NCBI RefSeq assembly: GCF_000025525.1
Contig: NC_013887.1
Location: forward strand, 1,560,729 to 1,624,728
Origin: Methanocaldococcus sp. FS406-22
Lineage (GTDB): Archaea; AGJL01; Methanococci; Methanococcales; Methanocaldococcaceae
Direction: 5' to 3'
DNA: 64,000 bases
Made by a program: the position numbers and the translations under genes. The notes under the pieces were generated by a model that saw only the letters and a program-made list of their open reading frames with translations, did not search any database and had not been told where the DNA came from. The stretch's first letter is position 1. The number at the start of each line of letters is the position of its first letter. This document shows, piece after piece, positions 3,719-55,969 of the stretch.

Positions 3719-5347
3719 TTAAAATTCGTCACCTCCTCCCATGTCTCCTCCTTCTCCTCCCTTGTCTTCTTTAACTTTCTCAGCAGCTATGACGTCATCG
3801 ATTCTTAAGAGCATGACTGATGCCTCTGTAGCTGAGTCAATTGCCTGTGTCTTGACTTTCAATGGTTCAACAACCCCTTTCTCCATCATATCAACTACTT
3901 CTCCTTCGAAGACGTCTAATCCGTAGACTTCTCCGCCTTCTTTCTCGTGAGCAGCTCTCAACTTAACGAGCATGTCAATTGGGTCTAATCCTGAGTTCTC
4001 AGCTAATGTTCTTGGTATTACTTCTAAAGCATCAGCGAATGCCTTAACTGCTAACTGCTCTCTTCCAGCAACTGTTTCAGCGAATTTTCTTAATCTCTTA
4101 GCTAATTCTATCTCAGTTGCTCCCCCACCAGCAACAATCTTACCTTCTTCTAATGCACACTTGACAACTCCAATTGCATCATCAATTGCTCTTGCAACTT
4201 CTTCAACAACGTGCTCTGTTGAACCTCTTGCTAAGATTGTTACAGCCTTTGGATGCTTGCACTCTTCAACGAATATCATTGCATCTCCAGCAACTTTTCT
4301 CTCTTCAACTAATCCAGCTTCTCCAAGGTCTTCTGGTGTTAAGTCATCAATTTTTGTTATTATTCTTGCTCCTGTAGCTTTAGCTAATTTCTCCATGTCT
4401 GACTTCTTAACTCTTCTTACTGCTAAGATTCCTTTCTTAGCTAAGTAGTGCTGAGCTAAGTCATCAATTCCTTTTTGACAGAAGACAACATTAGCTCCTG
4501 TAGCAGCTATTTTCTCAACCATGTCTTTAATCATCTTCTCTTCTTGCTCAATGAACTCCATTAACTTAGCTGGGTCAGTAATTCTTATCTCTGCATCAGT
4601 TTCTGTTTCTTTGACTTCAATTGGGCAGTTTAACAATGCAATCTTAGCGTTTTCAACTTTCTTTGGCATTTGTGGGTTGACTCTCTCTTTGTCAATAACA
4701 ACTCCTCTAATTAAGGTTGTTTCTTCAATTGGAGCTCCTTCCTTCTTCTCAACTTTAATTAAGTCCTTATCAACTTTTCCAGTTTCTTCATCAACAACTG
4801 TTCTAACTGCCTCAACGACGATTTCAGCTAACTGCTCTCTTGCTTTCTCTGCTCCTTTACCAGTAATTGATGTCATTGCAATTTTCTTTAACATTTCAGT
4901 GTCATCTGGTTTAACTTCTTTAGCAACTGACTTTAACTCTTCAATTGCTTTATTTCTTGCCATCTCGTATCCATTGATGATGACTGATGGGTGGATGTTT
5001 TGGTCTAACAACTCTTCAGCTTTTCTTAACAACTCTCCAGCAATAACGACTGCTGTTGTTGTACCGTCTCCAACTTCTTTTTCTTGGGTTTTAGCAACTT
5101 CAATTAACATCTTAGCAGCTGGGTGCTCAACACTCATTTCTTTTAATATTGTAACCCCGTCGTTTGTAACAACTATATCTCCTAATTCATCAACTAACAT
5201 TTTGTCCATTCCTTTTGGTCCTAATGTTGTTCTAACTGTCTCAGCGATAATTCTACCTGCTAAGATGTTCATTCTTTGAGCGTCTCTTCCAACATATCTT
5301 TTAACATTTTGTGGTAATACTACTATAGGTGCTCCTGCCATTGCCAT
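3719..5347 (-). CDS. ths: Thermosome subunit (group II chaperonin)
   Basis: ATP-driven cytosolic folding chamber built of two stacked rings. From ATG 5347 the protein is 542 residues. Visible motifs are the ATP-binding segments [11 protein letters not shown] and GDGTTTAVV near the N-terminus, the [10 protein letters not shown] segment near residue 400, and the Gly-Gly-Met rich tail ([13 protein letters not shown]) found in thermosomes. Longer starts are possible, but the GTG at 5356 is inside the ribosome binding site GAGGTGATG, so ATG 5347 (MAMAGAP) or ATG 5353 is preferred. Codon use is strongly biased, as expected for a highly expressed gene. It has its own strong promoter and is divergent from hisS. 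Only one subunit gene is seen here. Confidence 0.97.
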
Positions 5348-54071: not shown

Positions 54072-55277
<1,206 letters not shown>

Positions 55278-55342
55278 AGTTTTTATATTAAAATTCACTT
55301 TTAACATATAAACATCTATTATAATAAATAACTATTTTGTAA

Positions 55343-55406
55343 GGGATGATGAGACATCGATGTTCTGATTAACTTATAAATGATGAACGCGCCCTTCTCT
55401 GACCTT
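55343..55406 (+). ncRNA. C/D box guide RNA (2'-O-methylation guide)
   Basis: All four boxes are present in order: C (ATGATGA, 55346-55352), D' (CTGA, 55365-55368), C' (ATGATGA, 55380-55386) and D (CTGA, 55399-55402). A short terminal stem AAGG/CCTT encloses them. Two 12-base guides lie just upstream of D' (GACATCGATGTT) and D (ACGCGCCCTTCT), the archaeal geometry; the D'-C' gap of 11 bases is a little long. Such RNAs bind L7Ae, Nop5 and fibrillarin. The targets, presumably rRNA or tRNA, are not assigned. The locus is inside the polymerase-ribosomal operon spacer. Confidence 0.88.
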
Positions 55407-55516
55407 CAAAAAATTTAAACAAAAATCAACACAATTTTTGATATTTTTATTCATCCAAAAAGTATATAAATATAGAGAAACTATTATCGAAAACCAATAT
55501 TCTTACCGGTAGGGAG

Positions 55517-55615
55517 TTAGGACTTTCGCAGGAGTAAATGTTTTATGTTGAATATTAACATCCCTTAGACGTCTAAGTTCCAAAGTTAAAATATATTTGC
55601 CTGCGAAAGTCCTAA
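55517..55615. repeat. MITE-like element with perfect 16-bp inverted ends
   Basis: TTAGGACTTTCGCAGG (55517-55532) and CCTGCGAAAGTCCTAA (55600-55615) are exact inverted repeats. The centre TCCCTTAGACGTCTAAGTTCC (55561-55581) holds a 14-bp palindrome and matches the 19360-19380 centre in reverse. Outside the ends, CCGGTAGGGA and TCCCTCCGG add further imperfect pairing, so the RNA could fold into a long hairpin just before rpl30e. Confidence 0.8.
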
Positions 55616-55654
55616 GAAATCCCTCCGGAGTAAAAAATGAGAAGGAGGGAGACT

Positions 55655-55969
55655 ATGGATGTGAATAAAGCAATTAGAACCGCAGTAGATACAGGTAAAG
55701 TAATTTTAGGTTCAAAAAGAACAATAAAATTCGTTAAACACGGAGAAGGTAAGTTAGTAGTTTTAGCAGGAAACATTCCAAAGGACTTAGAGGAAGATGT
55801 CAAATACTATGCTAAGTTATCGAACATCCCAGTTTATCAACACAAAATAACATCATTAGAACTGGGAGCGGTTTGTGGGAAACCTTTCCCAGTTGCTGCT
55901 CTTTTGGTTTTAGATGAAGGGCTCTCAAACATTATGGAGCTGGTAGAGAAGAAGGAAGGTGGTGAATAA
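55655..55969 (+). CDS. rpl30e: Ribosomal protein L30e
   Basis: Large-subunit protein of the L7Ae/L30e RNA-binding family. 104 residues from ATG 55655, which has GGAGGGAG just upstream; the longer frame starts inside this site. Recognisable segments are [23 protein letters not shown] and the C-terminal [17 protein letters not shown] part. In archaea this gene normally follows rpoA2 directly; here a guide RNA and a repeat separate them. The nusA start shares one base with its stop. Confidence 0.95.

Follow-up and report, generated by a model that had tools for sequence, protein, structure and literature searches.

A complete double-guide C/D box sRNA gene lies on the forward strand at positions 55341–55406 of a 64,000-nucleotide stretch of the Methanocaldococcus sp. 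FS406-22 genome (the whole stretch analyzed, hereafter the window). It is very likely an archaeal sRNA gene that directs 2'-O-methylation of the large-subunit rRNA, and, judging from its sequence, the RNA almost certainly targets a methyl mark to the catalytic heart of the ribosome. The anatomy of the element, its conservation, its complementarity to rRNA and its position relative to promoter-like sequences point to such a gene, which would be transcribed, assembled into an RNP and used to guide methylation.

The order of the parts is C box, 12-nt guide, D' box, C' box, second 12-nt guide, D box and a short closing stem, and the full string reads AAGG-G-ATGATGA-GACATCGATGTT-CTGA-TTAACTTATAA-ATGATGA-ACGCGCCCTTCT-CTGA-CCTT (table 1). 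Across homologues, the C' box is ATGATGA, GTGATGA or ATGAAGA. The closing stem, with four pairs here, varies from two to eight among homologues; it reaches eight perfect pairs in two of them (G010 and G016), and its covariation is weak (shuffle p = 0.045). The D'-C' spacer is longer than that of any homologue; the spacers of six further strict C/D sRNAs encoded in this genome measure 3–6 nt. Such a long spacer could reduce D'/C' activity.

Table 1. Coordinates of the sRNA parts and of neighboring promoter-like elements in the window.
Feature	Position	Strand	Remarks
Candidate TATA-like element TTTATATT in GTAAAGTTTTTATATTAAAA	55282..55289	+	Follows the rpoA2 stop; putative promoter
Closing stem, 5' half, AAGG	55341..55344	+	Pairs with 55403–55406
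C box ATGATGA	55346..55352	+	Exact RUGAUGA; invariant in 15 genomes
D' guide GACATCGATGTT	55353..55364	+	11 Watson-Crick pairs to 23S 2593–2603
D' box CTGA	55365..55368	+	Exact; invariant in homologues
D'-C' spacer TTAACTTATAA	55369..55379	+	11 nt; 2–7 nt in homologues
C' box ATGATGA	55380..55386	+	Exact
D guide ACGCGCCCTTCT	55387..55398	+	Probable target 23S G55 (E. coli G54)
D box CTGA	55399..55402	+	Exact; conserved
Closing stem, 3' half, CCTT	55403..55406	+	Partner of 55341–55344
BRE/TATA-like rpl30e promoter CCAAAAAGTATATAAATATAGAG	55455..55477	+	Downstream of the sRNA; putative promoter

The preliminary description of this DNA had proposed a complete C/D guide RNA, and four exact boxes, two 12-nt guides and a closing stem were indeed recovered; matches to 23S rRNA, conservation and the presence of a fibrillarin gene in the genome (PF01269, E = 5.9e-101, 336 bits) further support this identity. 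The sequence hallmarks of archaeal C/D sRNAs are present: a C-D'-C'-D series of boxes, with RUGAUGA at C and C' and CUGA at D and D', two guides of about 10–12 nt, at least one of them complementary to rRNA with pairing across the D+5 position, conservation of boxes and guide among relatives (15 genomes), and a terminal stem that closes the C/D kink-turn. The window holds a single instance of the four-box pattern, and none of 100 Markov-simulated 64-kb windows contains it. In the whole genome, the strict C-D'-C' pattern gave eight matches versus none in a reversed control. Six of the other matches (L217–L222) were also observed to be complete double-guide C/D sRNAs, with guides of 12–13 nt.

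Rfam analysis revealed a full-length match to snoPyro_CD (RF00095; E = 2.8e-5) whose 33.0 bits lie under the gathering score of 45 bits and hence outside formal membership of that family; at gathering thresholds, the whole window yielded nothing but a tRNA. The single-strand fold of the sRNA is no better than that of shuffled sequences (z = -0.96). Unremarkable single-strand folding is common for C/D RNAs.

In an RNA of about 60–66 nt, boxes C and D would be expected to form a kink-turn and boxes D' and C' a k-loop, and L7Ae, Nop5 and fibrillarin would bind the folded RNA. This sRNP would then guide ribose 2'-O-methylation of the large-subunit rRNA. Its D' guide would select a uridine of the peptidyl-transferase loop, local U2596 or U2500 in E. 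coli numbering, and its D guide would most likely select local G55 of domain I (E. coli G54).

The D' guide provides the clearest target. When the guides were compared with rRNAs and tRNAs under the D+5 rule, as the preliminary description had suggested, this guide without its last base was found to be a perfect complement of 23S positions 2593–2603 (ACATCGATGTC), with 11 of 11 pairs, a score equalled by none of 400 shuffled guides. In 16S rRNA, no comparable match of the D' guide and no convincing site for either guide were found. A tRNA target was also considered for the D' guide and rejected; the best of 30 tRNAs scores 6, compared with 11 on 23S rRNA. The D+5 nucleotide is U2596 of the local 23S rRNA. 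We take ACAUCGAUGUC to be aligned with E. coli 2497–2507, and hence U2596 to correspond to E. coli U2500, at which the rule predicts 2'-O-methylation. The structure of the Deinococcus radiodurans 50S subunit shows U2500 paired to A2453, within an extension of helix 89 (PMC4690841). In archaea, guide targets typically cluster near the peptidyl-transferase center (PMC4644070). No report of Um2500 in rRNA was found in the literature searched.

Chaperone roles have also been proposed for archaeal C/D sRNAs (PMC4644070; PMC7994747), and the two guides here would bind distant regions of 23S rRNA, in domains I and V. However, the D+5 geometry is intact, the pairing around the target nucleotide is perfect and the boxes are canonical, all of which make it quite unlikely that the D' guide serves chiefly as a folding chaperone of the peptidyl-transferase loop instead of as a methylation guide.

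Support for a methylation guide also comes from relatives. The D' guide, together with the C and D' boxes, was detected without mismatches in 15 genomes, comprising 13 of 14 Methanocaldococcus genomes (the one lacking a match, G006, is an incomplete assembly) and both genomes of a sister genus (g3). The guide core ACATCGATGT and the C box are identical in all 15 while the flanks diverge, and the exact 23S complement is present in all 12 guide-bearing genomes with a readable 23S site. A search of 394 archaeal genomes that tolerated a compensated base opposite position 2499 added a single guide-like match, in G179, which looks like chance, having neither a full C box nor a C' or D box behind it.

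The preliminary description had also pointed to a palindrome in the D' guide, ACATCGATGT, as a feature that could allow self-pairing. The palindrome is exact and self-pairing is possible, but as a side effect rather than a designed feature: the guide is palindromic because its 23S target is palindromic (ACAUCGAUGU), and the target is palindromic in this lineage because the C found at E. coli position 2499 is replaced by A. The palindrome is thus the mirror of the ribosomal target. The site itself spans positions 4092–4103 of the rRNA locus L003 (local 23S 2592–2603). A2499, and with it ACATCGATGT at the 23S site, is found in Methanocaldococcus, the sister genus and two further genomes (G014 and G017), and the remaining Methanococcales with a retrieved site have C, most guide-less members carrying ACCTCGATGT.

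Dimeric box C/D RNPs assembled with M. jannaschii proteins are known (PMC3608112), and one might imagine that the guide is palindromic for the sake of self-pairing, so that sRNAs dimerize through ACAUCGAUGU in a regulated or dimeric RNP. The exact palindrome and a computed guide:guide duplex of -15.5 kcal/mol at 37 °C would be compatible with such dimers. However, guide:target pairing is computed to be stronger at both temperatures considered (-18.0 kcal/mol at 37 °C; -3.7 versus -1.7 kcal/mol for guide:guide at 85 °C), and the identical palindrome in the 23S target means that the guide must be palindromic in any case. We regard selection for dimers as very improbable.

Of 14 guide-less genomes of the same order in which the site could be read, 12 carry C2499 and two, G014 and G017, carry A2499; a guide at a different offset may be present in these two. 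Thus, the presence of the guide is associated with A2499, but A2499 does not make the guide obligatory. As genomes are not independent samples, this association may reflect only one or two events. A tentative hypothesis, which we consider somewhat less than an even bet, is that U2500 is methylated, beside a lineage-specific C-to-A change at 2499, by a guide specific to this lineage and fixed in both Methanocaldococcus and its sister genus, guide and rRNA having changed together in adapting the catalytic core to heat.

The D guide ACGCGCCCTTCT pairs with 23S positions 51–61 through ten pairs, including one internal G-U, which places local G55 (E. coli G54) at D+5. In this genome alone the match is within chance, 48% of shuffles being as good. 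Comparative analysis is more telling: the G55 site is the best 23S match of the D guide in 10 of the 15 genomes, and in six of those ten (CACGCCCTTC) the G-U is replaced by A-U to give ten perfect Watson-Crick pairs. The D guide therefore probably targets G54, weakly indicated here but backed by comparison. The five relatives with homologues L091, L092, L094, L095 and L096 have different D guides and the same D' guide. Within this one sRNA family the D' guide stays constant, whereas D guides can be exchanged (guide swapping).

With respect to genomic context, the sRNA was correctly placed between rpoA2 and rpl30e, and lies within their 359-bp gap; rpoA2 ends at 55277 and the listed rpl30e ORF begins at 55637. 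The true rpl30e start is probably the ATG at 55655, just after the Shine-Dalgarno sequence GGAGGGA, and not the in-frame ATG at 55637. The TATA-like element behind rpoA2 precedes the sRNA by about 55 nt and is conserved in most syntenic relatives. The CCAAAAAGTATATAAATATAGAG element is nearly invariant in the ten genomes with the order rpoA2-sRNA-rpl30e. In another relative (G001), the sRNA precedes rpl30e without rpoA2, and in four more (G010, G002, G016 and G024) it is found beside unrelated genes. Promoter-like sequences both after the rpoA2 stop and before rpl30e suggest that the sRNA lies in a gap between transcription units. Its transcript would arise at a weak promoter of its own, located behind rpoA2, or, as is also possible, by trimming of rpoA2 readthrough RNA, and the rpl30e operon would start at its own promoter downstream of the sRNA.

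It had been suggested that the sRNA may be cut out of an operon transcript running from rpoA2 through rpl30e, coupling rRNA methylation to expression of translation genes. The shared strand, the gene order common to ten genomes and the finding that most archaeal C/D sRNAs lack promoters of their own and use those of their neighbors (PMC7994747) are in line with this proposal. However, a nearly invariant predicted TATA-type promoter separates the sRNA from rpl30e, a second conserved TATA-like element lies upstream of the sRNA, and in five relatives the sRNA has either unrelated neighbors or no rpoA2 beside it. Such coupling is therefore unlikely. A location between transcription units fits the general behavior of archaeal C/D sRNAs, which sit wherever transcription is on offer (PMC7994747).

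A separate observation concerns the rpl30e leader (55506–55628, forward strand), which folds far better than shuffled sequences (z = -8.1). Within 55503–55655, it has an outer stem CCGG.AGGGA/UCCCUCCGG and an inner stem of about 16 bp. Among 41 genomes, conservation of the leader is confined to the ten Methanocaldococcus genomes in which the gene order is rpoA2-sRNA-rpl30e; the changes in the leader include one double-sided compensatory change and several to G-U. The 3' arm UCCCUCC (55620–55626) is the complement of the rpl30e Shine-Dalgarno GGAGGGA (55644–55650); the complementarity is exact in eight of these genomes, and the remaining two keep it over six bases. At 37 °C the predicted partner of this arm is the Shine-Dalgarno, and at 85 °C it is the leader 5' arm. 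The leader is a plausible candidate for a translational switch, possibly dependent on temperature or L30e, perhaps by L30e autoregulation; autoregulation is known for the L7Ae/L30 family (PMC5539422). The leader was also considered as an rRNA mimic, which was rejected as only a few scattered 9-nt words are shared with rRNA, and no canonical kink-turn was evident in it on inspection by eye.

The sRNA closely resembles known archaeal C/D sRNAs (sR RNAs; snoPyro_CD RF00095; the seven-species RNA-Seq catalogue, Dennis et al. 2015, PMC4644070) in its boxes, double 12-nt guides, length, closing stem and a D+5 target in functional rRNA. It differs in its longer D'-C' spacer and sub-gathering Rfam score, and the literature searched names neither its guide pair nor its U2500 target. 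L217–L222 share its boxes and guide lengths but not its guides, and have shorter spacers. The same 2498–2500 segment is modified in bacteria, as Cm2498 in E. coli and m5C2499 in D. radiodurans (PMC4690841); those marks are, however, made by stand-alone methyltransferases on other nucleotides or atoms than the predicted ribose mark at U2500.

In summary, the sRNA is a genuine, conserved C/D guide of a well-known class with a clear target in the peptidyl-transferase center. An ordinary explanation resolves the puzzle of the palindrome and weakens the idea of operon coupling; a guide may be strikingly palindromic and yet be no more than the plain mirror of its target. The analysis also yields a testable prediction, namely that the active center of the ribosome in hyperthermophilic methanogens would carry Um2500 beside an unusual rRNA base.
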